Notes: generated by a model from the sequence alone, not told the origin. A DNA stretch of 30,203 bases from a virus (IMGVR_UViG_3300045738_000116:1-30203), one strand, 5' to 3'. Positions 1 to 20,900 are shown, numbered from the stretch's first letter. Translations and numbers: made by a program.

Positions 1-172
1 CTATCATCTCACCCGGACATGCTACAAAGACCAGGAGATTGCTTGTGGGAAATGTGGTGCCTGTCAAGAACGATTGGAGGCGTTCCAGAACAACAAAATT
101 GAAGACCCGATTGAATACGAATCCAGAGAAATCACGCCCAGAGATTGCATAGGACTACATCACGATGACTAG
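1..172 (+). CDS. queC: QueC, 7-cyano-7-deazaguanine (preQ0) synthase, C-terminal fragment
   Basis: Only the last 56 residues are present; the reading frame begins before the window and ends with TAG at 170-172. The visible part holds the QueC zinc site: CYK, then [14 protein letters not shown], giving the C-x(n)-C-x2-C-x2-C pattern, followed by the conserved IEDPIEYE tail. QueC converts 7-carboxy-7-deazaguanine to preQ0 using ATP and ammonia. Nothing is fused after the zinc motif. An N-terminal amidotransferase domain (as in Gat-QueC) cannot be excluded because that part is outside the window. The next gene starts 9 bases downstream, after an AGGAG site that overlaps this stop codon. This neighbour (FolE) and DpdA further on place it in a phage DNA-modification pathway rather than tRNA queuosine synthesis. 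The identification rests on motif recognition over a short fragment. Confidence 0.85.
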
Positions 173-181
173 GAGAAAAAA

Positions 182-1141
182 ATGATTGAACTGTCATGGA
201 CAGACATCCAAAAACGAGCAAAGAAACTGGTCAATGAAATCATTCTCAGCTGGAATGTCCCAACTCCCACAAAAGGAACCCCCACTTCTTTTGTCAAAGC
301 CTATCCCGTCCCACGGGGAGGAATCCACGCCACCCAGGCCATCCAAGCAGAATTCTTTGGGGAACATCCTCACTTGATGACGGATGGAACCTTCACGGGT
401 GGAGGGTTGGAGATCGTTGAATGTCCAGACCAAGCAGACATCATCATTGATGACATCATTGACACCGGAAAAACTCGCAAGGGATTCCGCTCCCGTTTTC
501 CAGAAAAACCATTCTTTGCCCTGGTGGACAAGACCCATTTGGACAGTCATTTGGAACAAGAGTGGGTTCAATTTCCCTGGGAAAGAATGACCGGGGAACA
601 AGGACCAGAAGAAAACATTGTCAGGACTCTTGAATTCATTGGAGAAGATCCATCAAGAGAGGGACTGAAGGACACACCCAAACGAGTTGTCAAGTCTTAT
701 GGTGAACTGTTTGCCGGCTACAACCAAAACGTGGAAAACATCTTCACCACCTTTGAGGATGATTCCACGGATGAGATGGTGGTTCTTCGGGACATTGAAT
801 TTCAATCCACTTGTGAACATCACATGCTTCCTTTCCTGGGGACCGCCTCCATCGCCTACATCCCCAACGGGAAGATCATTGGGATCAGTAAGTTGGCGAG
901 ACTTCTTGAAATCTTCTCCCGAAGACTTCAAATCCAAGAGAGAATCTGCCAACAAATCACGGACGCCCTGGACCTTCATCTTGGATGTCTTGGAAGTGGG
1001 TGTGTCATGAAAGCCCAGCATCTTTGTATGGTGTCACGGGGAGTCAAGAAACAGAACGCGACCATGATCACGTCTTCTCTGTCTGGAGTGTTCCGCCAGC
1101 CAGAAGTGAGGGCAGAATTTTTGTCATTGATTGGTTCATAG
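182..1141 (+). CDS. folE: Gpt-like phosphoribosyltransferase fused to GTP cyclohydrolase I
   Basis: This is a 319-residue two-domain protein. Residues about 1-135 look like xanthine-guanine phosphoribosyltransferase (Gpt): YPVPRGGI at 41-48, the PRPP loop DIIIDDIIDTGKT at 86-98, and EWVQFPWE at 127-134, matching the base-binding region of Gpt. Residues about 140-319 are FolE, with zinc ligands C211 and H214 in CEHHM and C282 in HLCMVSRGV. The C211-C282 spacing of 71 equals that of E. coli Cys110-Cys181. FolE opens the GTP imidazole ring to give dihydroneopterin triphosphate, the first step to preQ0. The ATG is preceded by AGGAG at 171-175. The fusion is unusual. By inference, the phosphoribosyltransferase may return guanine released by DpdA to GMP. 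The FolE call is very secure, the PRT fold is secure, and its base specificity is inferred from Gpt similarity. Confidence 0.93.
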   Translation: MIELSWTDIQKRAKKLVNEIILSWNVPTPTKGTPTSFVKAYPVPRGGIHATQAIQAEFFGEHPHLMTDGTFTGGGLEIVECPDQADIIIDDIIDTGKTRKGFRSRFPEKPFFALVDKTHLDSHLEQEWVQFPWERMTGEQGPEENIVRTLEFIGEDPSREGLKDTPKRVVKSYGELFAGYNQNVENIFTTFEDDSTDEMVVLRDIEFQSTCEHHMLPFLGTASIAYIPNGKIIGISKLARLLEIFSRRLQIQERICQQITDALDLHLGCLGSGCVMKAQHLCMVSRGVKKQNATMITSSLSGVFRQPEVRAEFLSLIGS

Positions 1142-1150
1142 GAGAAGAGT

Positions 1151-2023
1151 TTGACAGTCAACAAACTACGAACAGGAGAATTATTTGCCGGCATAGGTGG
1201 TATTGGACTTGGCTTGGAAATGACAGGAGAGTTTGAAGTTGTCTGGCAAGTTGAAAATGATCCGTATGCCACAAAGGTTCTGGAAAAGAATTGGCCAAAG
1301 GTGAAACGTCATGATGATGTCAGCACATTTCCACCAGTGGAAGGGGATTGGGATGTAGATTTGATCACGGCTGGGTTCCCCTGTACTGATCTCAGCATTG
1401 CAGGAAAACAGAAAGGATTAGAAGGTGACAACTCAAAATTATTCTATGAAATCATTCGCATCGCTAGGATACTTAGACCAAGGTGGCTTCTTCTGGAAAA
1501 CGTCTCAGCTCTCCTTATTCAGGGAATCGGAGAGGTTCTTGGGGAAATGGCCGCGATCCCTGGTAATGATAACTCACCGCACTTCAAACGGGTGGAATAC
1601 CATTGTCTTCCGGCATCCCGTCTTGGCGCGCCGCACAGACGGGACCGTATCTTCATATTGGCGCACACCACCAAAATTCTATCCAACTCCCCTCTCACGG
1701 GACTGGAAGGATTCGGGAGATTGGAGAAAGCTAGCCAAATACGCACACAAAAAACGCTTAGGGTGTGTAGTCGCGAAACAAGAGAAGACCAATGGGGGAC
1801 TCAATGCAGATTGGGTGTCCATCCTGATGGGCTTTCCACCGGATTGGACAACAATGAATGCGGAGGATGGGAATGTGGAATTGACAGATTGACCATCAAC
1901 CAAGTCAACAGGAAAGACAGATTGCGTTGCTTGGGAAATGCGGTAGTCCCCCAGGTTGCTCAGTTCTTTGGAGAGCTTATTCTGGACAAGATACGACAAC
2001 AGAAGGAAGAAACCGCATCTTGA
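1151..2023 (+). CDS. dcm: DNA (cytosine-5) methyltransferase
   Basis: The 290-residue protein carries the ordered C5-methyltransferase motifs: SAM-binding motif I LFAGIGGIGLG at 11-21, catalytic GFPC with nucleophile C78, ENV at 116-118, motif VIII RLGAPHRRDRIFIL at about 157-170, and motif X LGNAVVPQVA near the C-terminus. It transfers a methyl group from SAM to C5 of cytosine in DNA. The region between motifs VIII and X, the likely target recognition part, is short. The start is a TTG at 1151 with AGGAG at 1140-1144. Motif I begins at residue 11, so nothing upstream is needed. It sits between folE and dpdA in the same transcription unit and would give the phage DNA a second kind of modification. 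A long open frame with its own family-like sequence overlaps its middle (see 1425-1892). Sequence specificity cannot be predicted. Confidence 0.93.
   Translation: MTVNKLRTGELFAGIGGIGLGLEMTGEFEVVWQVENDPYATKVLEKNWPKVKRHDDVSTFPPVEGDWDVDLITAGFPCTDLSIAGKQKGLEGDNSKLFYEIIRIARILRPRWLLLENVSALLIQGIGEVLGEMAAIPGNDNSPHFKRVEYHCLPASRLGAPHRRDRIFILAHTTKILSNSPLTGLEGFGRLEKASQIRTQKTLRVCSRETREDQWGTQCRLGVHPDGLSTGLDNNECGGWECGIDRLTINQVNRKDRLRCLGNAVVPQVAQFFGELILDKIRQQKEETAS
1425..1892 (+). other. overlapping open frame inside the methyltransferase gene (155 codons, possible overprint)
   Basis: This open frame lies wholly within the methyltransferase gene, one base out of phase, starting with GTG at 1425 (AAAGG at 1412-1416). 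Its translation is not random-looking. It contains LGKWPRS, then LARRTDGT, TPLSRDWKD and GGLNADWVSILMGFPPDWT. From memory these strings resemble proteins annotated next to or as phage and bacterial cytosine methyltransferases (WPRSG, WPTPTARDWK, WVEWLMGFPxGWT). Each string is encoded by the same bases as a conserved methyltransferase segment in the main frame: LGKWPRS overlies LGEMAAI, and LMGFPPDWT overlies PDGLSTGLDN. It may be a frame echo of conserved codons that gene callers sometimes annotate, or a genuine overprinted gene. I see no independent proof that it is translated. Confidence 0.25.
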
Positions 2024-3156
2024 TCATTTATTATTCATCAGATGGATCACGGGCAAACCCAGAAATCTCCCTGGGGGATGACGCCACCATCATGTTGTCC
2101 CAGTATTACATGCAACACGGGCCGGACTTACGATTCAACAGAATCCTGCAAGAGATTGACACACCGAACAGAAAGCCAAGGAAGGGATCAAGACCCAGGG
2201 AACTTGAACACATCAAAAAATTGGCGGATGTTCCCGTGGGCGTTCCCCTCTCCCATTTCTATGATTCAGGATCGTTCACCTTGTGGACCACGGCGGCGAA
2301 ACACGGGAAGAAGCACAATTGTGGAGAGTGGGAATTCTATGACACGGATGAGTTCTGGGACTACTTTGAAACCTACGCGGAATTTGTGAAAACGTATTCA
2401 CGGGGGCTAACTTATTATGCCAACATTGATGTCCTTCCTTTCCGCAACCGGATCAAACCACCAAAAGGAAAATCATCCCATGAGCTGTCTTGGAGGAATC
2501 AAGTGGAGTTGGAGAAACGTGGAATCAACCCTGTCCCTGTTGTCCACTACAAGGCCCCCATGTCCGTTCTCAAACACTATTTAGGGAAAGGGTACGAATA
2601 TATTGGGTTGGGTGGGATGGGCGGAAGTGGTCACACGGCGTGGTTGAACTGGATGGATCGTGCCTTTGACGTGATATGTGACACACCCGACAAAATGCCA
2701 ATCGCCAAGATCCACGGTTTTGGAGTGACGGGATTCAGTGGGATCAATCGCTATCCCTGGGAGTCCGTGGATTCAACCAGCTGGACAAAAGCCGGGGGAT
2801 TCGGAAACCTTTTGATCCCCCACAAACGAGACGGAAAGTTTGTCTTTGATTGTCAGCAGTATTCAATCGCCGTCTCTTTTGAAAGCCCAGAAATCAAATG
2901 GAGGGGACGACATCTCACCAACCTGAACAAAGGGGAAAGAAAGATTGTGGAAGAGTGGTTGGAGTTCATTGATATTCCCTTGGGTGAATTCCACTATGAC
3001 GAAGACGGGAACCCAGTGAAAGACACCAACGGAGTTTTGACGGAACACACGAACCGAAGAATGGCGAACTTGCTATTCTTCCAGGAATTGCGAAAATCTA
3101 TCATCACCAAACCCTTCCATCACAACAGATCCAAAGGTTTTGGATTCTTCCAATAG
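2020..3156 (+). CDS. dpdA: DpdA-type 7-deazaguanine DNA transglycosylase
   Basis: A 378-residue protein of the tRNA-guanine transglycosylase superfamily, phage DpdA branch. DpdA swaps guanine in DNA for a 7-deazaguanine base such as preQ0. Family features seen: YDSGSF at 81-86 (D82, counterpart of the TGT DSGGFQ aspartate), YANIDV at 133-138, YIGLGG at 194-199 (TGT IGGL loop), HGFGVTG at 232-238, and SVDSTSW at 249-255, where D251 occupies the position of the TGT nucleophile. No TGT zinc cluster is present, as expected for DpdA. I prefer TTG at 2020, overlapping the previous stop, because it keeps the strand IIYYSSDG at the N-terminus; AAGGA lies at 2003-2007. ATG at 2092 is the alternative but removes that strand. 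Co-location with queC and folE strongly supports the role. Confidence 0.87.
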   Translation: MIIYYSSDGSRANPEISLGDDATIMLSQYYMQHGPDLRFNRILQEIDTPNRKPRKGSRPRELEHIKKLADVPVGVPLSHFYDSGSFTLWTTAAKHGKKHNCGEWEFYDTDEFWDYFETYAEFVKTYSRGLTYYANIDVLPFRNRIKPPKGKSSHELSWRNQVELEKRGINPVPVVHYKAPMSVLKHYLGKGYEYIGLGGMGGSGHTAWLNWMDRAFDVICDTPDKMPIAKIHGFGVTGFSGINRYPWESVDSTSWTKAGGFGNLLIPHKRDGKFVFDCQQYSIAVSFESPEIKWRGRHLTNLNKGERKIVEEWLEFIDIPLGEFHYDEDGNPVKDTNGVLTEHTNRRMANLLFFQELRKSIITKPFHHNRSKGFGFFQ

Positions 3157-3166
3157 GAGACAGCTC

Positions 3167-4201
3167 ATGTCATCGAAACAAATCAACCGGGAAATCTTTC
3201 TTCAACAACTGGAATCCGTCCAGGCCGGATTGTCTTCCCGTGAAGTCATGGAACAGTCATCTTGTTTCATTTTTCAAGGTGGTGTTGTTCAAACTTACAA
3301 CGATGAAATAGCATGTAAACAAAATTGTTCCCTGGACATCGTCGGTGCTGTTCAGGCAGAACCTCTCCTTGGGATTCTTCGGAAGTTGACGGAAGAAACA
3401 ATCATTGTCACCACCACGGACGAAGAGTTTGTCATTGAAGGAAAAAGACGGAAGGCGGGGATTCGGATGGAGAATGAAATTCTTCTTCCCGTGGACAGAA
3501 TTGAACAAGCAGAGGAATGGAAAGACCTTCCCGAAGATTTCAATGATGCGGTTCAAATCGTCATCCAATGTGCCGGCGATGATGAATCCCAATTCCGTCT
3601 CACTTGTGTTCACCTCACCCCCACCCACATTGAAGCCAGTGACAATTTTCAGGTGTCACGTTATTCCCTGGACACGGGAATCAAAGAATCAGCCCTTGTC
3701 CGTAGAGACTCCATCAAGCATATCATTGAATTGGGGATGACTCAGTTTTGTGAGACGGAGTCTTGGATTCACTTCCGCAACCCGTCTGATCTCACCTTGT
3801 CTTGTCGCCGATACGCAGAAGAAGCAAATGAGTTTCCAGACCTCTCCCCCATCATTGATTTCAAGGGAGAACCCACCACCCTGCCGGCGGGACTTGCGGA
3901 TGCGGTGGAGAAGGCGGAAGTGTTCTCATCAGAAAACACCGAAGAAAACCAAGTCATCATTCAATTGAAATCCGGCAAACTTCGCATCCGGGGAGAAGGA
4001 AACTTTGGTTGGTTCACTGAGGTGAAATCTTTGAAGTACAAAGGGGATGAATTGAGTTTCCGCATCTCCCCAAAACTCTTGGTGGATCTTGTATCCCGTC
4101 ACACTGAATGTGAAATCACATCGGATCGGCTGAAAGTAGATGGGGGCGATTTCATTTATGTGACAAGTCTGAGTCTCCCAAATGAGGCAGACAATTCATG
4201 A
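3167..4201 (+). CDS. DNA polymerase sliding clamp (DnaN-like)
   Basis: The 344-residue protein looks like a divergent bacterial-type beta clamp. The middle domain has LTCVHLTPTHIEASDNFQVSRYSL, matching the DnaN pattern of a strand followed by ATDGHRL. The last domain has FPDLSPII, a strand series with KLRIRGEG and GWFTEV, and ISPKLLVDLV, matching DnaN EYPDY, ISANN and FNPKYLLDAL. A clamp encircles DNA and tethers the polymerase. The length is close to the usual 365 residues. The start is ATG 3167 with AGGAG at 3155-3159; an upstream in-frame start would extend into dpdA. The stop overlaps the next start as ATGA. The neighbours are polymerase and clamp-loader genes, which fit. The N-terminal domain is too divergent to place by eye, so the call depends on the last two domains and context. 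Confidence 0.8.
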   Translation: MSSKQINREIFLQQLESVQAGLSSREVMEQSSCFIFQGGVVQTYNDEIACKQNCSLDIVGAVQAEPLLGILRKLTEETIIVTTTDEEFVIEGKRRKAGIRMENEILLPVDRIEQAEEWKDLPEDFNDAVQIVIQCAGDDESQFRLTCVHLTPTHIEASDNFQVSRYSLDTGIKESALVRRDSIKHIIELGMTQFCETESWIHFRNPSDLTLSCRRYAEEANEFPDLSPIIDFKGEPTTLPAGLADAVEKAEVFSSENTEENQVIIQLKSGKLRIRGEGNFGWFTEVKSLKYKGDELSFRISPKLLVDLVSRHTECEITSDRLKVDGGDFIYVTSLSLPNEADNS

Positions 4202-5418
4202 ATCCTGGTTTCTTTTCAACATCAACCCTGGATTCAAAAGCCCCACAAAGCCTGATTCCAAAATGTGGGGCATGTGGAATCTACAAGACTTGTGGTTCCC
4301 CCAAACTTCCACCCGTGGGAGAGGGGCGGAAAAAAGTGTTGATCATCAGTGAAGCCCCAAGTGGGAGGGATGATGATGCCGGGAGATTCCTTTCCGATTC
4401 TAAATCCTCCCTTCCCCTGGAGTCTGCTTTGAGAAAATGTGGCGTGGACATCTTGAGAGACTGTTGGTTGACATCCGCCCTCATTTGTCACACCAACGGG
4501 AAGTCTCCCACCAGTGACCAAATTGGCTATTGTCGTCCCAACCTGATCAAGACAATCAACACGCTCCAACCCAATGTGATCATCCCTCTTGGTGGGTCTG
4601 CTATCAACTCCATCATTCCCCATGTCTGGAAGGAGAACATTGGGATGGTGGGCCGGTGGTTTGGTTGGCAAATCCCCTGTCAAAAATTGAACGCATGGAT
4701 TTGTCCCACTCATTCCCCTATCTGGGTGAACCATGCCATCAACAATGATCACATGAATGCCAAGACGTTGAAAATCAACTTCAACAAACACATCACTCAA
4801 GCCCTCCGATTAGATGAAAAACCCTGGAACCCTGTTCCAGATTACCGCAAAGAAATAACCTTGATTCGAGAACCAAAGAAAGCGGCAAATCAAATCAGGA
4901 AGATGATTGAGTTGGGTGGACCCGTGGCGTTCGACTATGAGACAGACAGGATCAAGCCGGACTCTGATGACTCACGGATTGTGACGTGTTCCGTCTGTTG
5001 GAAAGGGAAACGCACAATCGCATATCCGTGGCATGGGGAAGCCATCACCGCCACAAAGGAGTTGTTGAGGTCTCCCCTCCCTAAAATCGGTTGCAACTTG
5101 AAGTTTGAAGATCGGTGGACCAGGAAACACATGGGCCACCGTGTTCGCAATTGGTATTGGGACACCATGTTAGCCGCCCACGTCATTGATGGTCGCCCTG
5201 GTGTGACAAGTATCAAGTTCCAATCATTCGTCTTGTTGGGGCAGGATTCCTATGACGGACACATCAAACAATTCTTCCAGAGTGTGAAGGGAGAAGAGAG
5301 GAACCAAATTGATCTTGTGGATGTGGATGACCTGTTGTTGTACAACGGGCTGGATTCTCTTCTTCAATATAAAGTTGCCATGAAACAGATGGACTTGTTG
5401 GAGTATCCCCGGCCATGA
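4198..5418 (+). CDS. uracil-DNA glycosylase (family 4-like) fused to DEDD 3'-5' exonuclease
   Basis: A 406-residue fusion. Residues 20-200 match Fe-S uracil-DNA glycosylases: C23 and C26 (CGAC), then C97 and C112, spaced as the four cluster cysteines; SEAPSGRDD at 51-59 for the GEAPG motif; HTNGKSPTSDQ for the NRxPT segment; and a THSP motif at 171-174. Residues about 215-400 are a PolA-type proofreading exonuclease: D246 and E248 in FDYETD, N300 with E304/D305, WDTMLAAH with D322, and YNGLD with D386. The gene ends where the polymerase domain of a normal PolA would begin, and the next gene starts in an ATGA overlap. So proofreading and uracil removal are on one chain and synthesis on another. 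Whether the glycosylase still cuts uracil is unknown, since the usual GEAPG glycine is Ser. Confidence 0.88.
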   Translation: MNPGFFSTSTLDSKAPQSLIPKCGACGIYKTCGSPKLPPVGEGRKKVLIISEAPSGRDDDAGRFLSDSKSSLPLESALRKCGVDILRDCWLTSALICHTNGKSPTSDQIGYCRPNLIKTINTLQPNVIIPLGGSAINSIIPHVWKENIGMVGRWFGWQIPCQKLNAWICPTHSPIWVNHAINNDHMNAKTLKINFNKHITQALRLDEKPWNPVPDYRKEITLIREPKKAANQIRKMIELGGPVAFDYETDRIKPDSDDSRIVTCSVCWKGKRTIAYPWHGEAITATKELLRSPLPKIGCNLKFEDRWTRKHMGHRVRNWYWDTMLAAHVIDGRPGVTSIKFQSFVLLGQDSYDGHIKQFFQSVKGEERNQIDLVDVDDLLLYNGLDSLLQYKVAMKQMDLLEYPRP

Positions 5419-6794
5419 CACCCACCCGCGCCGACGCCTACAAACTCCTTCATGATGGGTGTGTCACCCTGTCAGCCGTGGAATCCAATGGGATGAAAGT
5501 GGACGTGGACCACCTGGATCACTCCATTGAACGGATTGGAAAGGAGATCACCAGGGGAGAGGGAGAGTTGCGGGAAGACAAGTTGTATCATATTTGGCGG
5601 AGAGAATACGGGGCAAAAACCAAACTTGGAAGCCGGGAACAATTGGGGAACATCCTGTTCAATGTCCTGGGACATCCGTGTTCCGCATATACGAAAACAG
5701 GAAGACCCAAGACGGATGGAGCCACGTTTGAAGGTGTTGATGAACCCTTTGTTGTTCGCTATTTGGAGATTGAGAAACTGAAAAAGGTGCGGAACACCTT
5801 CTTGACTGGGATCAAACGGGAAGTCTGCAACGGGTTCCTCCACCCTGTCTTCAACCTGCACACGGTTCAAACCTATCGCTCAAGTTCCAATAGTCCCAAT
5901 TTTCAGAACTTCCCCATCAGAGATCCACAGATGGGGGAAGTGATCCGCCGTTGTTTCATCGCCCGCCCAGATCATCACATTGTGGAGATTGACTATTCAG
6001 GGATTGAGGTGCGGATTGCTACGTGCTACCACCAAGACCCTGAGATGAAGTCATACATTGAAGATCCCTCAAAAGATATGCACCGGGACATGGCGGCTGA
6101 GTGTTACAAGACCACCCCCGAACACGTCTCCAAGGAGATGCGATATTGTGGAAAAAACATGTTTGTCTTCCCTCAATTTTACGGGGATTACTATTTGAAT
6201 TGTTCCCGGACCTTGTGGGAAGCCATCGACAAAATGAAACTCCAAGTGGGAGACATTCCCCTGAAAGAACATTTGAGGAACAAGGGAATCTCTTCCCTGG
6301 GAAAGTGTAATGCGAACCAACCACCACGGGCCGGCACATTTGAACGTCACATCCGTTCCGTGGAGAGAGATTTCTGGGATCGGCGCTTCCGAGTTTACAA
6401 CGCATGGAAACAAAAGTGGTGGCACGATTATCAAGAGGAAGGTGGGTTCACCACATTGACAGGATTCAGGATCGATGGAGTCTATGGAAGAAATGATGTG
6501 ATCAACTATCCCATCCAGGGATCAGCGTTCCACTGTCTTCTCTGGTCCCTCATTCGTCTCCACAAGTGGTTGACGAAGAACAAGATGCGATCCCTGATTG
6601 TGGGACAGATTCATGACAGTATTGTTGCGGATGTCCACGAAGATGAGTTGGAAGACTACCTTTCAACCGCCAAGGAAATCATGACAAAGTCTCTTCCTCA
6701 AGCCTGGGACTGGATCAACATTCCCTTGGAAGTGGAAGCCGAGGTCACGCCTATCAATGGGACATGGCATGAGAAGAAAGAGAGGAAAATTTGA
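5415..6794 (+). CDS. polA: family A DNA polymerase, polymerase domain only
   Basis: The 459-residue protein carries the palm and fingers of family A polymerases. It has the template-binding TYRSSSNSPNFQNFP at 153-167, motif A EIDYSGIE at 191-198 with catalytic D193, fingers helix with R243, K247 and Y256-G257 (motif B), YPIQGSA at 365-371, and motif C QIHDS at 398-402 with D401. The motif C residue after the aspartate is Ser, where E. coli Pol I has Glu883. The fingers helix reads as if one residue longer than Pol I between K and YG. There is no exonuclease domain; it is encoded just upstream with a 4-base ATGA overlap, so the two chains are probably translationally coupled and associate. The phage also encodes a clamp and clamp loader, which suggests this is the replicative polymerase. 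Confidence 0.93.
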   Translation: MTPTRADAYKLLHDGCVTLSAVESNGMKVDVDHLDHSIERIGKEITRGEGELREDKLYHIWRREYGAKTKLGSREQLGNILFNVLGHPCSAYTKTGRPKTDGATFEGVDEPFVVRYLEIEKLKKVRNTFLTGIKREVCNGFLHPVFNLHTVQTYRSSSNSPNFQNFPIRDPQMGEVIRRCFIARPDHHIVEIDYSGIEVRIATCYHQDPEMKSYIEDPSKDMHRDMAAECYKTTPEHVSKEMRYCGKNMFVFPQFYGDYYLNCSRTLWEAIDKMKLQVGDIPLKEHLRNKGISSLGKCNANQPPRAGTFERHIRSVERDFWDRRFRVYNAWKQKWWHDYQEEGGFTTLTGFRIDGVYGRNDVINYPIQGSAFHCLLWSLIRLHKWLTKNKMRSLIVGQIHDSIVADVHEDELEDYLSTAKEIMTKSLPQAWDWINIPLEVEAEVTPINGTWHEKKERKI

Positions 6795-7722: not shown

Positions 7723-8187
7723 ATGGCAGATGACTTTTTGAATATGGATGTGGACCGATTGGATGAGATGTGGTTGGAACAACCACGACTCTTTCACAAG
7801 TATGCGAAGAAGTTGGCGAACACCAGACAACAACTTGAAGAAGAGAAAGCAGAATTGGAATTGTGCAAGGCTGAATTGGATCGTGACATCCGAGCCGTCC
7901 CGTCACAATTTAATTTGGAAAAGATCACGGAAACGGTGGTCTCTAACACGATTATAATCCAGGACAAATATCAATCACAACTTGCACAAGTGGGGGACTT
8001 GAAACATCAAGTTGACATCATTCAAAGTGTTGTCACTACATTGGACCACCGAAAACGCGCATTGGAAAACCTTGTCAGTCTCCACGGTCAAGACTACTTT
8101 TCTTCACCCAGGGCAAAAGACAATCTTTCCAGAGAAGCAATTGAAGAACTTGAGAAAACGTCTGTTCGTAGAAGAAACCGAAACTAG
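7723..8187 (+). CDS. coiled-coil protein, possible UvsY-like recombination mediator
   Basis: A 154-residue, strongly charged, mostly helical protein. It has a long predicted coiled coil from about residue 25 to 55 (QQLEEEKAELELCKAEL) and a second helical stretch about 85-125 ending RKRALENLVSLHGQDYFSSPR. ATG 7723 follows AGGAG at 7711-7715. It lies directly before the SSB and RecA-like genes. In T4-type phages the mediator UvsY has a comparable length and helical nature and loads UvsX onto gp32-coated DNA. The mediator role is inference from order and shape; I do not see a diagnostic UvsY motif. I recall similar proteins in other phages annotated as hypothetical. Confidence is high that it is a gene and low for the function. 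Confidence 0.6.
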   Translation: MADDFLNMDVDRLDEMWLEQPRLFHKYAKKLANTRQQLEEEKAELELCKAELDRDIRAVPSQFNLEKITETVVSNTIIIQDKYQSQLAQVGDLKHQVDIIQSVVTTLDHRKRALENLVSLHGQDYFSSPRAKDNLSREAIEELEKTSVRRRNRN

Positions 8188-8198
8188 GAGAAAGCAAA

Positions 8199-9083
8199 AT
8201 GGCAAAGACAAGAAAACAGAAGAAACGAAAACTAGCCTCAGCCAAGAGAAGGGCAGAGACTCATTCTCACGGATTTGAAAGAACGACAACCACAACTCCA
8301 GAAGGGATGTCATATTTCCAACTGAAAGCATCAGGAATGAAACGGATTGATGTTCTTCCCCATGTGGTTAAGGAGACAAACAAGTATGCGGATGCGGGTG
8401 AACTTCACTATGAGAAGACGTTTTTTGTTCACCGGATCGGACCCAACGGGGATGCATACATTTGTCGTGAGAAAACCACAAGCGAGAAGTGTCCGGTTTG
8501 TGAACATCTTGCGAAGTTGAGGCGAGACCCAAACGCCGACGAAGAGTTGATCAAGTCTCTTCGCCCAAAGGAACGGCAATTGTTTTATGTGATCGACCAT
8601 GACGAACCGGAAAAAGGAGTCCAGTTGTGGGACATCAGCTACTATCTATTTGGTAAACAACTGGATGCACGAATCAAAAACTCTGAGGAAGACGATGGGT
8701 TTGATTTGTTCTTTGATCCAGGAAGTGAGGGTCTGACTTTGAGACTTGGAATAGCAGAACGATCTTTTTCAGGGCGTGCTTTTTATGAGGTGGAGACAGT
8801 AGACTTCAAGCCTCGGAAGAACGCGATTGACCCCGAACTATATGAAGACCTCCCGTCCCTTGATGATTTGATCAAGGTGGAGGGCTACAACAAACTGAAA
8901 TCCATCTTCCTCCAGACCACTGAGGAAGGGGAGGAAGAGGAAGAAGAAGTGGAGGAAGTGGAGGAAGAGGTGATTCCCGCCACCATTGAAACGGTGGCCT
9001 CCAAAAATGGAGATGAAAAGGAAGAGGGCTGGGACGAAGAAGACGATGAAGAAGATGATGATGATGATGATTGGGATGACTGA
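8199..9083 (+). CDS. gp32-like single-stranded DNA-binding protein
   Basis: A 294-residue protein with the layout of T4 gp32: a basic N-terminus (KTRKQKKRKLASAKRR), a core with a zinc site, and a very acidic C-terminal tail (about 240-294, Glu and Asp runs). The zinc site reads H78, C89, C98, C101, close to the gp32 pattern H-x12-C-x9-C-x2-C. The segment from RQLFYVIDHDEPEKGVQLW onward also matches this group. It would coat single-stranded DNA and use the tail to contact replication and recombination proteins. The start is ATG 8199 with AGGAG at 8186-8190 overlapping the previous stop. The gene is followed by a strong terminator, so it ends a transcription unit. The acidic tail produces long but meaningless open frames on the other strand. 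Confidence 0.87.
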   Translation: MAKTRKQKKRKLASAKRRAETHSHGFERTTTTTPEGMSYFQLKASGMKRIDVLPHVVKETNKYADAGELHYEKTFFVHRIGPNGDAYICREKTTSEKCPVCEHLAKLRRDPNADEELIKSLRPKERQLFYVIDHDEPEKGVQLWDISYYLFGKQLDARIKNSEEDDGFDLFFDPGSEGLTLRLGIAERSFSGRAFYEVETVDFKPRKNAIDPELYEDLPSLDDLIKVEGYNKLKSIFLQTTEEGEEEEEEVEEVEEEVIPATIETVASKNGDEKEEGWDEEDDEEDDDDDDWDD

Positions 9084-9101
9084 ACTCCCACCATCCATCC
9101 A

Positions 9102-9147
9102 CCCACCTCAACCGTTGTTGACATCATCAGCGGTTGAGGTGGGTTTT
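9102..9147 (+). terminator. rho-independent terminator after the SSB gene
   Basis: A perfect 13-base-pair inverted repeat (CCCACCTCAACCG at 9102-9114 with CGGTTGAGGTGGG at 9131-9143) has a 16-base loop and is followed directly by TTTT at 9144-9147. It lies just after the SSB stop and just before the RecA-like gene, so it probably lets the abundant SSB transcript end here while some readthrough continues. I see no clear promoter between it and the next gene. Confidence 0.9.
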
Positions 9148-9157
9148 AGGTTATGCC

Positions 9158-10252
9158 ATGAACGAGATTGAAGACATGAAGAAAAGCTTGAGAAAGAAAC
9201 AATCAAATCAACCCATTCTCCCCACGGACCTTCTTTCCACTGGGTCCACTCTTTTGAATCTGGCTTGCAGTGGGGATTACCGGGGAGGATTCGCCAAGGG
9301 AAAATATCATTTCCTGGTTGGGGATTCCGCTTCTGGGAAAACATGGTTGTCTCTGACTTGTCTCGCCGAAGCAAACATCAATCCAGAGTTCAAGGACTAT
9401 CGTTTCATCTATGATAACGCCGAGGATGGGGCATTGATGGACATCGCTCGTTTCTTTGGGAAGGGTGTCAAGGAAAGGATGGAGCCGCCTGAACGAGACG
9501 GGGAAGTTCCCGTCTACAGTGAGACCATTGAAGACTTCTATTATCACATGGATGATGCGGTGAAGGATGGGCGACCGTTCATCTACATTCTGGACTCAAT
9601 GGATTCTCTGTCATCCGCCACCGAACAAGACAAGTTCCAGGAAGAAAAAACTGCTTCCCGAAGTGGGAAGAAAACCACCGGGAGCTTCGGAGACGGGAAA
9701 GCAAAAAAGAACTCTTCCAATCTTCGGAAGTTGATGCCGGCGATCCGAAAATCAAAGTCCATCTTGATCATCATCAACCAGACACGGGACAACCTGGGGT
9801 TTGGATTTGAGAAGAAAAGCCGAAGTGGTGGTCACGCTCTCCGTTTCTATGCTACTCTGGAAATATGGTCTTCCATCAAGAGTAAAATGAAACGAACCGT
9901 GAGAGGGAAGGAACGGGAAATTGGGATCATGTGCAAGGTCCAGGTGAAGAAGAACCGTTTCACTGGACGGCTCCGAACTGTTGAGCTTCCCCTCTATCAT
10001 TCATTTGGAATTGATGAGGTGGGGAGTTGTATTGATTATCTTGTTGAAGAAAAACACTGGAAGAAGAAAAGCAACCAACACATTGAGATCACTGGATTTG
10101 ACATCCCCGGATCAACTCCACCATCACGAAAAAACCTGATCAAGTACATTCAAGAAAACAACCTGGAAGAACTTTTGGCGGAGATCGTTTCCGATGTTTG
10201 GAACAGTATTGAGAAGGAGTGTTCCGTGGAGAGGGTTTCCCGCTACCATTAA
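9158..10252 (+). CDS. RecA/UvsX-like recombinase
   Basis: A 364-residue RecA-fold ATPase. Walker A is GDSASGKT at 55-62, Walker B is FIYILDS at 141-147, and the SILIIINQTRDNLG stretch matches the RecA and UvsX loop 1/loop 2 region that binds DNA. Before Walker A, STGSTLLNLACSG resembles the RecA family entry to the core. It would form filaments on single-stranded DNA and drive strand exchange for repair and recombination-dependent replication. I chose ATG 9158 because the upstream frame runs into the terminator hairpin; the AGG at 9148-9150 gives only a weak ribosome site. It follows the SSB and possible mediator genes, a T4-like recombination order. It is divergent from host RecA and lacks the RecA C-terminal domain, so a phage-type recombinase is preferred. 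Confidence 0.87.
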   Translation: MNEIEDMKKSLRKKQSNQPILPTDLLSTGSTLLNLACSGDYRGGFAKGKYHFLVGDSASGKTWLSLTCLAEANINPEFKDYRFIYDNAEDGALMDIARFFGKGVKERMEPPERDGEVPVYSETIEDFYYHMDDAVKDGRPFIYILDSMDSLSSATEQDKFQEEKTASRSGKKTTGSFGDGKAKKNSSNLRKLMPAIRKSKSILIIINQTRDNLGFGFEKKSRSGGHALRFYATLEIWSSIKSKMKRTVRGKEREIGIMCKVQVKKNRFTGRLRTVELPLYHSFGIDEVGSCIDYLVEEKHWKKKSNQHIEITGFDIPGSTPPSRKNLIKYIQENNLEELLAEIVSDVWNSIEKECSVERVSRYH

Positions 10253-14642: not shown

Positions 14643-14668
14643 TCAACTGGCTACGGTGGTCCCTTTTT
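14590..14668. terminator. bidirectional terminator between convergent gene blocks
   Basis: GGGACCACCG at 14598-14607 pairs with CGGTGGTCCC at 14654-14663. Inside this, CCAGTTG at 14621-14627 pairs with CAACTGG at 14644-14650. On the + strand the stem is followed by TTTTT (14664-14668). On the - strand it is followed by GC and then TTTTTT (complement of 14595-14590). So it can end transcripts from both sides. It overlaps the 3' end of the DUF3310-like gene and abuts the glycosyltransferase stop. Confidence 0.8.
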
Positions 14669-15429
14669 CAATGGAGTTCTTCTGCTACCTCTTTCCGATG
14701 TCGGAACAACCCTTCCTCCGCCCGAGCGGTGTAGTCCTGGTGCCACTTCGGATTGATGTCAAACATGTCTTTTGCGATGGGACGATTTCCAATTGAATCA
14801 TAGTGTCTCTGGAGTCCTTCCGGTCCCCCACCCGATCCCGACAAGTGACGGTCTGAAACTCCCCAACGATAGAGATAAAAGATGTCTTCCGCAGGAATCA
14901 CCTCACCCGTGAATTCAGAAATCCCGGCCCGATGAAGCGCCTGGTTGAACGCCTGATCCTCCCAGCCGCTCGCCTTGGGAGGATAGCCACCTATCGCATC
15001 CAGAACCTCACGTCTCCACACCGCCATGCAATGGGTGTTCCCTGGACCTTCCACATAGATGGTTTCTTCCATCGGGCAATAGAAATAATTCTCCGCCCTC
15101 CACTCCAGGCCAACACCCAGTTTGTTCATGGAATATGTCAAACGATGTGGTAAACAGATGTCATCATCATCCCAACGGCACAAGACATCCCCTGTCGCCT
15201 CTCCAATCATCCATTCCAATTTGTCCGATAAAGTTGGGAACCGTGTTGACAGATTGAACACACGGACTCCCGGTTGGCTGAAAATCAATCTTTGCCCTGG
15301 GGTGTCATTGCAAATGATCAACTCCTTGTCTTCGTAATCTTGAAGCAAGAAAGAACGGACCGCCTCATCAATCAAAAATTGTTGGTGAGGGCATCGGTTA
15401 TAGGTGGGCATCAAGCAGGAGACTTTCAT
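14668..15429 (-). CDS. family 2 glycosyltransferase
   Basis: A 253-residue GT-A fold protein: KVSCLMPTYNR at the N-terminus, DKELIICND, then the metal and sugar-nucleotide motif RWDDDDICLPHRL (a DxD-type site), and a later GWEDQAFN segment matching the catalytic ED of this class. There is no membrane segment. It would transfer a sugar from a nucleotide sugar to an unknown acceptor. It is the last gene of the - strand block. Its ATG overlaps the methyltransferase stop (ATGA), with AGGAG just upstream. With the two genes before it, it forms a sugar-modification set next to a Thr-rich virion-region protein, a plausible acceptor. Modified DNA bases are another possible acceptor, but the distance from the dpd genes makes this less attractive. 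Confidence 0.88.
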   Translation of the reverse strand: MKVSCLMPTYNRCPHQQFLIDEAVRSFLLQDYEDKELIICNDTPGQRLIFSQPGVRVFNLSTRFPTLSDKLEWMIGEATGDVLCRWDDDDICLPHRLTYSMNKLGVGLEWRAENYFYCPMEETIYVEGPGNTHCMAVWRREVLDAIGGYPPKASGWEDQAFNQALHRAGISEFTGEVIPAEDIFYLYRWGVSDRHLSGSGGGPEGLQRHYDSIGNRPIAKDMFDINPKWHQDYTARAEEGLFRHRKEVAEELH

Positions 15430-16019
15430 TGAACTTTCTCCTGGAATTCAGAAATCCCCAAAGGTTTTGTTGAAAATGTGATCAATGATCCAACCAACTT
15501 CCCCAGCCGTCCACTCCTGGTGTGGTATGCGTCCATCAGATCACAACCACCTTGCCACTGGTCTCCTTGTCCTGGTTTGTAGTCATGAAGAGTGATGATT
15601 GTTTCATCAGAAACATCCTTCTCCACCCAATCAAAGAAGAACTCAACCGCCTCAGCCGTGTGGTCCGCATCATAGAAAATTAGCTCAAAGTCCTGGGGAC
15701 GGAGAAGAGGGAGGATGTTGTGCATGTCTCCCATCAACAAAGAACACTTCTCTTCAAACGGTTCAGTGTTATCCACCCAAGCCCGCATCACTTTCTTCCG
15801 AACTTCGGGAGAATCAATGTGACCCACGGAAGCGGTGTAGTCATCCCCGTGAAAATAATCCACGGAGAAAACGTGGGCGGCTGTCTCTGCGAGTGCCACG
15901 GTGGACCGTCCCTGGAAACAACCGATTTCCAAAACAGATTTCCCACGAGCCAATTCACTCAACATCCGAAATTCATTATCAAACAACCATCCCGCAACGT
16001 GAGGATATAGTTCAGTCAT
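15426..16019 (-). CDS. class I SAM-dependent methyltransferase
   Basis: A 197-residue protein with SAM motif I SVLEIGCFQGRSTVALAE, motif II-like HVFSVDYF, the acidic FELIFYDADHTAEAV segment and IITLHDY, typical of the Methyltransf_24-type small-molecule or sugar methyltransferases found with glycosyltransferases. I chose ATG at 16019 (MTELYPHVAG) because AGGAG lies just upstream; the longer frame runs through the previous gene. It overlaps that gene by 8 bases. It may methylate a sugar added by its neighbours; the substrate is unknown. Interestingly, the previous protein contains a related but degenerate domain. Confidence 0.85.
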   Translation of the reverse strand: MTELYPHVAGWLFDNEFRMLSELARGKSVLEIGCFQGRSTVALAETAAHVFSVDYFHGDDYTASVGHIDSPEVRKKVMRAWVDNTEPFEEKCSLLMGDMHNILPLLRPQDFELIFYDADHTAEAVEFFFDWVEKDVSDETIITLHDYKPGQGDQWQGGCDLMDAYHTRSGRLGKLVGSLITFSTKPLGISEFQEKVQ

Positions 16020-17949
16020 TTTGGTCTCCTTCTTCCTCAAGAGTTTCGGGTTCCCACAATCCAATTGGACAACCCTGTTCCTTCCAAGACGCCTTCTTTG
16101 AAATGAAGCATCCACAAACGGTGCAACGATCATCCACCCGTTGTGGACATGTTGAACACACCAACAATCTCTTCTCAAAAGTTTCCTCTGAGGCTTTTTG
16201 AGCCCCATCCACCACATGATCCGCCATCGCCTTCATCAAATTCTTCGCCATCTCAATCTTGGACGGGAGTTTTGGTTTGTCTTTTTTCAGACGCCCCATC
16301 ACCGTCAATCCATATTCGTCTTGGGTGTGATAGATCACGGTCCACTCTGGATTCTCTTTCATGAATTCCCGCATCGCCGGTAACTTCCCCGGACCCGCAT
16401 CTTCTCCCCGTTCTCCATAGAGAAGGGTGTCATGAATCACGATGTATCGCTTCACCTGGGGACCGAACTTTTTGAACTCTTCCTTCAAATAGGCATAGGT
16501 GTGGGTTGAATCGATGAAGAGCATGTCCGTCTCTTCTATTTCATCAACAAAATGGGAACGGAAAACAGAGTGGATGTACTCCGTGTCTCCTTCGCACATT
16601 CTTCCAGCATGTTCCTGAACGTGATCCCACTCCGTGTTGTAAGAGACTAACTTTTTGGGGCGTCCAGCCAAGAACCCAATTGTGGATTCTCTTCGTTGGG
16701 AGAACTCCGTGACGTGATCACATCCTTCTGCCAGTTCCTTCAACTTCGGAAGGTGCTGATCCAAGTCCCTGGGGATTTCTTTAATGGCATCAAATATCTC
16801 ATCAATGCTCTTCATGTTCTTCAAGTTTTTCAAACTCTTTCCCGCGCCTTTGTCACCACAAGTCCCACACTCTTCACCCTCTTTTGCTGGATCGCCAACA
16901 ATGTTTTTTGGATCGGCACTCAAAATCTCCCAAGTGCTTTCTGACATCAAGCCCGTTTTGACAAAGTGTTCATGGATGGGGGTGAGATCACGTCCCAACT
17001 CATTGAACTCAAGAATGTAGTTCCTCACCTTGTTGAATCGGGTCAAGGGAAACTTCACACCGTTGGGACGGGCGAACCGATGAAGCCACCGCATGAAGGG
17101 AAGACAAATTGACTTGGCTCCTTCCTGTCTGAATTTCTCATGGATGTAGAGTTCCTCCCCGCCAAATCCAATCGCATCGGAATTGAATCCCAACCACGCA
17201 TCTCGCCGGCAAGAGAACAACCCCAACCCATGACCAGGAGTCTCCCAGGGTTCTTCATCGTCACTTTTCCCAGCATACTCATAGCCCATCTTGAACAACT
17301 CCGTGGCATGACCAGGAAAAGGCATATTTGTCGGGAAGGGTTCGCATTGACCACATTGAGTGATCTCCACTGGTCCCATGTCCATTGAAATGAACTTGGC
17401 TCTTGAGGGATTTTCCTTGGTGGGGACACCCTCTTCCATGACTGAAAAAAGACATTCTTGACCATTGCAATTTCCCCTGAAAGTGGAACCCCATGTCCCC
17501 CACATCTCTCCCCGCCACTGATCATTGAAGTGGGTGGTGAAGGATGTCAGATTGTCGTAGATCAAGGGACCAGAATAGATGTCCCGTGTGGTGGGGTGGT
17601 CATCATACCACTTTACCAGTCTCTGGAGAGAACCAGGATGTAACAGAACATGACAATCAACCACAAGAACCGCATCACCAGTGGCAACGTCAAAAATTGC
17701 ATCACGGGCCACGCTCGTTCCGTGGACATCGGGAAGGGGATGGTAGATGGAACCCGCCGTTTCAATGGACACGAATCCTTGCATCATGTGTTCAATTTGT
17801 TTCCCCGCCCTGGTGTGGGGTGAATTGTCCACCACAACGAACTCAACGTCCTTCATCACTTCGGGATGAAAAATCCTCATAGCCTGGATCGTGAAATAGA
17901 CTCCATCGTAATCGTCAAAATGGGCCATCCCAATAGTTAGCTTCGGCAT
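16012..17949 (-). CDS. three-domain protein: glycosyltransferase, methyltransferase-like domain, zinc ribbon
   Basis: A 645-residue fusion. Residues 1-310 are a GT-A glycosyltransferase: KLTIGMAHFDDYDGVYFTI, VEFVVVDNS, VARDAIFDVATGDAVLVVDCHV (D98 in the DxD position), and FGGEELYIHEKFR, the acceptor-side motif seen in GalNAc-transferase-like enzymes. Residues about 375-545 look like a SAM-methyltransferase fold (TEFSQRREST in place of motif I, then DMLFIDSTHTYAYLKEEF and RYIVIHDT), but the glycine-rich loop is degraded. Residues 598-628 are a small zinc ribbon (C598, C601, C609, C612, C614, C627), a type of end domain I recall on phage proteins. ATG 17949 follows AAGGAG. The sugar donor and acceptor are unknown. 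It lies directly downstream of the Cys/Thr-rich gene. Confidence 0.85.
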   Translation of the reverse strand: MPKLTIGMAHFDDYDGVYFTIQAMRIFHPEVMKDVEFVVVDNSPHTRAGKQIEHMMQGFVSIETAGSIYHPLPDVHGTSVARDAIFDVATGDAVLVVDCHVLLHPGSLQRLVKWYDDHPTTRDIYSGPLIYDNLTSFTTHFNDQWRGEMWGTWGSTFRGNCNGQECLFSVMEEGVPTKENPSRAKFISMDMGPVEITQCGQCEPFPTNMPFPGHATELFKMGYEYAGKSDDEEPWETPGHGLGLFSCRRDAWLGFNSDAIGFGGEELYIHEKFRQEGAKSICLPFMRWLHRFARPNGVKFPLTRFNKVRNYILEFNELGRDLTPIHEHFVKTGLMSESTWEILSADPKNIVGDPAKEGEECGTCGDKGAGKSLKNLKNMKSIDEIFDAIKEIPRDLDQHLPKLKELAEGCDHVTEFSQRRESTIGFLAGRPKKLVSYNTEWDHVQEHAGRMCEGDTEYIHSVFRSHFVDEIEETDMLFIDSTHTYAYLKEEFKKFGPQVKRYIVIHDTLLYGERGEDAGPGKLPAMREFMKENPEWTVIYHTQDEYGLTVMGRLKKDKPKLPSKIEMAKNLMKAMADHVVDGAQKASEETFEKRLLVCSTCPQRVDDRCTVCGCFISKKASWKEQGCPIGLWEPETLEEEGDQND

Positions 17950-17974: not shown

Positions 17975-20900
17975 TTAAGATTTATCAACACAAGTTCCAT
18001 CTGCAAGTTGGCCATTAGTAGTTCCCGCAAAACCTGGCTCTTCACATTCACAGTCCGTCCCACACGGCATTTCCGTGCAACTGTTCTCCCCGGCACCGGT
18101 TTGGTTCCAGGCACCTGTCATTTCACAATTCATCGGATCACAATCCCATTGATATTGGCAACTCTCTTCTTCACAATCACATCCCGGTGCTGGTGTTGTT
18201 GCACATGCGGTAGATGGGGGACATCCTTGTCCCGTATACCAAGCGTCCATATTTGGTTTGGCGTTGCAAGCTACTTCTGTTAATCCTGCTTCACAAGTTC
18301 CGTAATTGTAGCAACACGATCCGGTTGGTGGCGGTGTGGTTTCACAAGTCACCGCACCACAACCAACGCCCGCTGTCCATGATTGGTTGTCACGGGCTTC
18401 GCAATTGGATTCCGTTTCTATATTACACGTCCCGTAGTTGTAGCAACAAGCTCCATCACCTGGGGCAATCGTGGTGGCACATTCAACTTGGTCACATCGT
18501 TTCCCTTCGTACCAAACTCCTGTTCCTTCACCGCTTCCTAAAGCAGCACATTCGGATTGTGTGTTCACCGCACAAGTTCCGTAGTTGTAACAACAAGCGG
18601 AATCACCTGGGTCAAGTGAAGTGGGACACGGTGCAACTTCTGCACACGTTTTATCCGCTTCCCACGACATGGAACCTGTTTTCTGTTGGCACGCGCCATA
18701 GGTTAAATCTTCGGTGCAATCGTCGCCATAATTCCAACAACAGGCCGACCCCTCCGATTCAGGTGCATCGGTGGTGGTGGTTTCTGTTGTTCCACTATGA
18801 GTTTCGGGGCAATCTTCGCATGTGAATCCTTGACCAAGAAAATAAGTGTCAAATTCACAAGCGGCGGCGGGCGGTGACGGGTATTCTTGGCCACAACAAT
18901 CCCCACCCGAAGCACCACAATGCCAGACGGTTGAATTACCAACGCAATTCATCAACTCCCCGTCTACATATTGGGTGCATGATGGATTTGGATTCGTCGC
19001 ATAAATACAACACGGCCCGTGACAACAACAGGTGTCCCAATAAGCCGGATCAAAGGGTGGATTTCCACACGGGTAATGGGGATTGACTGGCTCCCCACAA
19101 CCAGGGGCGGGGTTGCAAGAAGTTGTGGTGGTGGATGTGGCCGTGGTGGTGGTTGAAGTTGGACAAACGGTGGTTGTGGTGGTGGTGGTCCACGGGGCGG
19201 GAGTGGTGGGATCACACGTTGTCACCGTGGTGTCTGAAGTGGTTGGTTCCACGGTGGTTGTGGTGGTGGATGTGGGTGTGGTGGTGGATGTGTTTATGGT
19301 CAAACAATAATTGGAATAAAGTTGACCACATGCGGGCGGAGCGGTTGTTTCAACACTGATCGAGTAATCACTTCCACACGCCGTCCAATTTGAATATGAA
19401 CGATTACATTCATAATCTGGAAAATAGCAAGGACATTCATTTTGATCACAACGGATGTCAAGTTCCACCCAAGCCGGGGGATCACATTGACAAGAGTATT
19501 TCCAATCGCATCTTCCGCACTGGTCCCCACTGTCACAATTTGAACCTTCTTCGTCACACGGACCAGGCGGTGGTGCCGTGGATGCCCCTCCGATACATGG
19601 GACACATTTTGAGACTCCTGAAGTCACAAATTTTGGCGGTGGCCAATCCATGAAACCAGGACATTCAGCGCATGTGGAACCCGCCGCCGATCCGCACAAA
19701 TCCAGAACCAAAACCCATTGGTCGCACTCAGTTGAATAGTTGAAGCAACATTTAGATTCAGGATAATCACAAGCCGTGCAGGGATCGCAAGACGTGGTAG
19801 TTGATGAAGTGGTTGGTCCAGGTGTGGTGGTTGATGAATAACACGGAGCGCATGGATCTTGTGTTGTTGAATTTTGTGGTGGGATGCGACAACCCGTGCT
19901 GGCAGATTCACAATCGTTTCCCGTGTGGGAAGGGTAATCACAACCGCAACAATAGCCACCTGAATGATAAGCCCCATTGCACCAACCCAAACTTGTGCAA
20001 TCATGGGACACCAAAACCCATCCAGCAAAAGATTCAGAATAATGGAAATGGCAATTTCCAGTACAAGGGGGTGCCGGTGGTCCTGGTCCGGGTGGTGGTA
20101 AATCAACGCAAGGAGTGTTTGCCGAATTACAAAACGGGTCATCTTCGGGATAGCCACACGGACAACGGGGGGCGCAATCATTACTGACCGCGGACCAGGC
20201 CCACGCTCCGCCGCCCATCCATACCGGTTCCCCTTCCCACTCACAACCAGCTCCACAAGCGGCGAGGGTTGTGGATGTATCACAATTGCAATCTGGTGTG
20301 GTAGTTGTGGTTGGCTCTACTGTTGTGGCCGTGGAAGTGGTGGTGGTGCAATCAAGTCCTGGGACGGGAACTCCAACGGAACAACTTGTCTCCGTGACTT
20401 CCCCGTCAATGTGACCACAATGATCAGGATATTGACATTGGCAATCTTCTCCAATATCGGGATCAAGAGTGGTGGTTGTAGGTGCGACGGTGGTGCTTGG
20501 ATTGGTGTAGCCCTCTTGCCCTGGACAACAAGAACAATCCCCGGCCGTCGCCGCAAACGAACACGGGTCCGACGTTGTTCCTGTTGTTCCTACATATTCA
20601 CACGCATCCTCATTCCCCTCATCAGGAGTCCACTCATAGCCCAATTCGTTCCAAGTCCACGAACAAGTTCCCGTGCAAGAATTTTCGGTTGGGATGACTT
20701 GATTGCCAGGGCCAGTCGCCGCCTCCGCCCCCGTGGGCTTTTCATTCAACCACCGCCCATATTTGGACCGTTGCAATCGGATGTATCGTTCCCCATCCGT
20801 GACCTCTTCTGCATAAATGTTGTAACAATCAATGCGGATCTGTTGTGGTGGATCTTGTAAATCAAGAACGGGAACCAATTTGTATGTTTGCCCTGGTTCA

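Follow-up and report, generated by a model that had tools for sequence, protein, structure and literature searches.

Positions 182-1141 of a 30,203-bp virus record from IMG/VR, which was analysed whole and is called here the window, encode a fusion protein whose N-terminal domain is confirmed to be a Gpt-type phosphoribosyltransferase (PRT), joined to a complete GTP cyclohydrolase IA (FolE). We propose, giving this reading about an even chance, that this PRT-FolE, encoded in the operon for 7-deazaguanine modification of the phage DNA, would be a bifunctional enzyme that salvages to GMP the guanine released by DpdA.

The window starts inside queC, so that only the 3' end of this gene is contained in it (positions 2-172, plus strand; encoding the last 56 aa, which include a CxxC...C zinc motif; PF06508, 6.6e-7; phrog_1550, 9.4e-10). 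The gene order is queC, PRT-folE, dcm and dpdA; the genes of the operon are preceded by AGGAG or AGAAGGA sites, and their ends overlap or almost do so. The fusion ORF (plus strand) begins with ATG, has an AGGAG ribosome-binding site at 171-175 and encodes 319 aa, with the XGPRT-like PRT domain, assigned from profiles, conservation and AlphaFold, in residues 1-134 (182-583) and the FolE domain in residues 144-319 (611-1141; PF01227, 3.6e-67 over residues 144-317). A gene for a C5-cytosine DNA methyltransferase of the dcm-like kind (1151-2023, plus strand, TTG start; PF00145, 1.3e-43; phrog_363, 1.4e-58) is inserted between PRT-folE and dpdA. The preliminary description had placed the fusion next to DpdA: the two genes do belong to the same operon, but the intervening methyltransferase gene had gone unmentioned. 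Given the position of dcm inside a 7-deazaguanine operon, it is possible that both C and G are modified in the window phage. Unlike in the window, the dcm-like gene of the closest relatives, L007 and L088, lies at the start of the operon. The gene for DpdA, the TGT-like DNA transglycosylase (2020-3156, plus strand; phrog_887, 8.2e-36, and family alignment), is best started at TTG 2020, overlapping the dcm stop codon. It is intact, and the two motifs looked for, DSG-[SA]-F and S-x-DS, are both present in the protein, with the two aspartates conserved in the family at Asp81 (DSGSF) and Asp250 (SVDS), in P0002 numbering. As in the operons of phages 9g and CAjan (PMC6884629), folE, queC and dpdA thus stand in one operon; relatives of the window operon also carry queD and queE, and where the window holds the end of queC, folE and dpdA, L007 and L088 have the full set.

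Elsewhere in the window, an ORF at 4198-5418 fuses a uracil-DNA-glycosylase-superfamily domain (PF03167) to a DNA polymerase A 3'-5' exonuclease domain, and the polymerase domain is found in the next ORF (5415-6794). The region 14668-17949 (minus strand), in the structural half, contains a methyltransferase ORF and two ORFs for family 2 glycosyltransferases, of which one encodes a GT2 protein of 645 aa that includes a DUF6171 region. Positions 17975-21151 (minus strand) encode a Cys/Thr-rich protein of low complexity, 1058 aa long, for which Pfam gave no match. A peptide near 29.1 kb resembling an Illumina adapter was also examined, and this reading was not supported.

Residues 3-135 of the fusion matched phrog_8995 ('phosphoribosyl transferase') with 2.1e-6 and the NCBIfam xanthine PRT model with 2.7e-5, which is below the cut-off of that model; a single-sequence search against E. 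coli Gpt gave 0.015, and a profile made from six fusions gave 9e-7 to 8e-6 against XGPRT chains. The motifs had been located correctly in the preliminary description (P44-R45-G46-G47, D86-T98 and W128-E134), and their residues are kept nearly throughout the 104 relatives aligned. In the pyrophosphate loop RGG (residues 45-47), R45 is present in 102 relatives, G46 in all 104 and G47 in 103. The PRPP loop (residues 86-98) follows the pattern [VI]DD[IL][IV]D[ST]GxT, with D90, D91 and D94 in 104/104 and G96 and T98 in 103/104 each. The residues of the 6-oxopurine site, K117 (102/104), W128 (104/104) and E134 (104/104), are retained to the same extent, as is P132 (103/104). In the HMMER alignment to 1a97, D90/D91/D94, K117, W128 and E134 fall on Gpt D88/D89/D92, K115, W134 and D140, and the shared lysine is presumably the contact for O6 of the base. 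Base-binding residues incompatible with purines had been named as a possible objection, but the residues found are those of 6-oxopurine PRTs. The PRT half is clearly under purifying selection (dN/dS 0.02-0.29 in unsaturated pairs), even if the constraint is usually weaker than on FolE. The Pfam PRT family matched no better than 5.1e-5 in any of the 104 relatives scanned, and because of this the domain is unnamed in the annotations examined.

The AlphaFold model of the full fusion, built with the 104 relatives, had a mean pLDDT of 92.6, and residues 1-138 could be placed on E. coli Gpt. When compared by VIA-align, the modelled PRT half gave a Z of about 11 with the XGPRTs of E. coli and Y. pestis, bearing out the likeness to Gpt proposed beforehand (against 1a96_D, Z 11.2 and rmsd 2.6 over 111 residues at 23% identity), and of about 10 with the purine PRTs of Sulfolobus and Pyrococcus. 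The smallest version, the 103-aa PRT of L122, which belongs to a divergent clade, was modelled at pLDDT 91.3; its top PDB matches were XGPRTs (VIA Z up to 10.1, 1vdm included), followed by 6-oxopurine PRTs of archaea and of H. pylori, and PyrR stayed below Z 7. Profile, structure and conservation together rule out a chance similarity to PRTs. With E. coli Gpt (PDB 1a95-1a98, 4jls) the predicted domain has in common the fold (Z about 10-11), the RGG pyrophosphate loop, the DDxxD[ST]GxT PRPP loop and the Trp-...-PW-[DE] base hood; it differs in being only about 23% identical, shorter and fused to FolE, and in that the flexible loop is missing from most relatives. The FolE half is intact: its model superposes on human GCH1 with Z 24.8, and the zinc and catalytic residues C211, E212, H213, H214, H280 and C282 are invariant in the family alignment. 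It is a complete domain, 43-47% identical to known FolE (Thermus 1wm9, human GCH1 6z86) and with the same zinc/catalytic Cys and His residues, from which it differs by the PRT domain at its N terminus.

The flexible loop deserves attention, since type I PRTs are believed to depend on it to catalyse efficiently. The distance from RGG to the DD of the PRPP loop is 20-42 aa in the family, and 20-33 aa in most relatives, as compared to 48 aa, by our count, in E. coli Gpt, so that the flexible catalytic loop of Gpt appears to be gone in most relatives. The longest spacing belongs to the window and its closest relative. At the place of the loop, between beta strands 2 and 3, the AlphaFold model of the window protein has in residues 61-74 a shorter stretch of low confidence (mean pLDDT 54 in block 61-70, and below 50 at 63-65). 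The missing loop favours the main rival explanation, a doubtful one, according to which the PRT would be a regulatory module: it would adjust FolE by binding a ligand (PRPP, GMP or a guanine nucleotide) that it does not convert. The PRT fold serves sensing in PurR and PyrR, and in the family under study the domain seldom occurs other than in fusion with FolE. Against a purely ligand-binding role, the base-site residues K117, W128 and E134 and the catalytic Asp94 are as well conserved as the PRPP loop, and the nearest folds are the catalytic XGPRTs, PyrR being clearly further away (Z < 7 vs. about 10). Neither PyrR nor PurR is known to have an XGPRT-type base site.

The distribution of the fusion was determined by scanning IMG/VR and genomes with local profiles, keeping the best 80 matches per scan with 8-kb flanks, which amounts to a targeted sample and not to a random census. 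The matches listed, with the GenBank and genome loci included, contained 176 fusion ORFs that form 119 clusters at 90% amino acid identity. In 105 of these 119 clusters dpdA was found within about 8 kb on the same strand, and que genes were also close by (queE in 110, queD in 105 and queC in 83), making the dpdA/que neighbourhood near-constant. The gene orders around the fusion are many, and thus the linkage to dpdA has survived rearrangement. The remaining 14 clusters among the matches listed are mostly virus contigs that end near the fusion on at least one side, with other que genes still visible; they include L203, which has queD, L189, a contig of 5 kb, and L201, a Peribacteria chromosome. 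A fusion common in the absence of dpdA was not found among these matches, the clusters without dpdA being nearly all truncated at a contig end or close to one; the situation that the preliminary description had singled out as damaging, namely the fusion being common in phages lacking dpdA and queC, was looked for and did not emerge.

In GenBank, at least 30 phage records have the fusion. They comprise Queuovirinae (NP1, PaMx25, JG054, VpKK5 and Vibrio 1.207.B) and unassigned phages of Stenotrophomonas, Variovorax, Xanthomonas and Sphingomonas, and in all five records examined the fusion of the que operon lies directly upstream of dpdA, with a homing endonuclease between the two in NP1. A match to DpdA was given by 233 GenBank records but a match to the PRT, in the PRT search, by only 31, which counts against the recycling reading. 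Recurrence in GenBank isolates and in the 119 clusters among the matches listed rules out an assembly error; together with the profiles and the AlphaFold model, it bears out the fusion as first described. Both the fusion and its association with DpdA operons are therefore supported. Some loci showed peculiarities. Two or more ORFs matching dpdA lie near one PRT-FolE in L020, L025 and L142; in L044 the PRT-FolE ORF (7959-9740; 594 aa) is interrupted within FolE by an intein-like insertion, located at the conserved HxC zinc/catalytic site; L017 has a further PRT-like ORF (289-510), which is short, truncated and altered in its PRPP loop. L112 corresponds to the L090 type but is divided between two ORFs, which we attribute to a frameshift.

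The exceptions to the link with DpdA are informative. Besides dpdA and que genes, both CAjan and MiCath carry an unfused FolE, with no PRT in the operon as opposed to the window, and CAjan nevertheless has about 32% of its G replaced (PMC6884629). No match to phrog_8995 that might represent a separate, compensating PRT was found among the records with unfused FolE that were searched. The PRT is therefore dispensable in DpdA phages such as these. A lone PRT of 148 aa with an intact site was found in L057 (8001-8447), a phage contig of 57.5 kb in which no folE, que or dpdA gene was detected; its tail resembles the FolE N terminus and is apparently a FolE remnant. In the class Peribacteria, 161 of 353 genomes matched the fusion query, mostly in the FolE half only, and three have the fusion (L201:7860-8831, L223 and L224), with KSG in place of RGG. 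Two of the three neighbourhoods were seen, one containing folK and folA and the other folA and thyA; dpdA gave no match in the one genome of the class searched. In Peribacteria genome G020 no match to FolP was found, and the folate reading there is drawn from the neighbouring genes.

From CAjan and MiCath, the lone PRT and the Peribacteria-class fusions it follows that the fusion is not strictly bound to DpdA, and these same cases speak for a further alternative, which we consider unlikely: the PRT would raise the GTP supply to FolE, or the purine pools, from any guanine, xanthine or hypoxanthine of the host, and the linkage to dpdA would merely mark the operons in which phages need FolE. This fits the chromosomal fusions beside folate genes, the retention of a PRT in a phage with no detected dpdA and the lack of a PRT in CAjan and MiCath; what tells against it is that chromosomal fusions are rare (3/353 genomes) and that dpdA is present in nearly every complete virus neighbourhood among the matches listed. 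'Salvage that feeds FolE' may nevertheless be a more accurate description than 'recycling specific to DpdA'.

In the tree of FolE, the PRT is carried by two well-separated lineages, of which one is the main lineage and the other is E. coli-like. The E. coli-like FolE is fused to the PRT in L016, L030, L070 and L086, and in L056 the PRT and a FolE of this second lineage are two adjacent genes of a dpdA operon. Scans for relatives of these two loci gave no other lone PRT like that of L057 and no other split PRT/folE like that of L056. Judging from these sequences, the two FolE partners would be due either to independent fusion or to replacement of FolE behind the PRT. In either case the joining of the PRT to two FolE lineages suggests that the pairing is functional. 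Unfused FolE sequences are nested among the fused ones, which calls for several changes of state, and so the PRT was probably lost several times. The existence of the PRT as a separate gene (L056) and apart from FolE (L057) is a further point against a module whose role would be to regulate FolE.

We return to the preferred reading, that the PRT salvages guanine released by DpdA. The PRT domain would join a 6-oxopurine, guanine above all, to PRPP, giving GMP, which kinases, presumably of the host, would convert into GTP; the FolE domain would commit this GTP to the synthesis of preQ0; DpdA would exchange preQ0 for guanine in DNA, and the freed guanine would be taken back by the PRT domain. On balance, PRPP and ATP would be spent to re-use the purine ring, and free guanine would be drained. 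Catalytic activity, guanine as the substrate and DpdA as its source are inferred. The balance would fit, as one GTP is spent per preQ0 and one guanine would be released per exchange if DpdA is TGT-like, and DpdA has been proposed to work like TGT (Hutinet et al., PMC6884629). In CAjan, 70,628 dPreQ0 per million nucleotides were reported, about 32% of G (PMC6884629). By our estimate these figures correspond to about 8,400 guanines for each genome of 59.7 kb, or about 1 mM guanine assuming 100 genomes in 1.5 fL, enough, in all likelihood, to be relevant for the GTP pool; in the phages, the guanine released by DpdA would probably be the main source for the PRT. The fusion gives no direct channelling, because GMP needs two kinase steps to become GTP, a point that also suits the regulatory explanation.

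A different substrate would be preQ0 itself or another 7-deazaguanine, turned by the PRT into a nucleotide for polymerase incorporation or for disposal. The pathway in which the PRT sits is indeed that of preQ0, and preQ0 resembles guanine along its 6-oxo and 2-amino edges, but we consider this very improbable: the PRT has the sites typical of PRTs for guanine and xanthine, and DpdA, which inserts the base by exchange (PMC6884629), is present. Moreover, in Campylobacter phages, which have the pathway but not DpdA (Hutinet et al., PMC6884629) and are thought to incorporate modified dGTP, 15 GenBank records matched FolE and none of them was among the PRT matches, an absence that also speaks for the preferred reading.

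Neither the fusion nor guanine recycling in 7-deazaguanine systems was found described in the open-access literature, in line with what had been supposed at the outset. The words 'phosphoribosyl', 'salvage' and 'fusion' are absent from the text of the 2019 survey (PMC6884629), which included Quinobequin-P09, a phage whose GenBank record has a PRT-FolE fusion; in the MMDA13 paper the fusion protein is called simply FolE. In those examined among the phage papers that name both GTP cyclohydrolase and a phosphoribosyltransferase, the enzyme meant is NAMPT.

The PRT domain is thus widespread in sequenced and environmental phages, hidden under 'GTP cyclohydrolase' annotations, and is notably small, a version of 103 aa having been modelled with confidence. 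Each site modified by base exchange costs the DNA about one guanine, and the open-access papers searched seem to pay no attention to the resulting guanine balance. We tentatively suggest a closed guanine loop, in which a dedicated PRT, reduced to about 90-135 aa, in most cases without the flexible loop, and joined to the enzyme that opens the pathway, would recapture the leaving group of DpdA, and every guanine expelled could return as precursor of the next modified base. If this is true, phages would balance the purines that their DNA modification consumes and releases.
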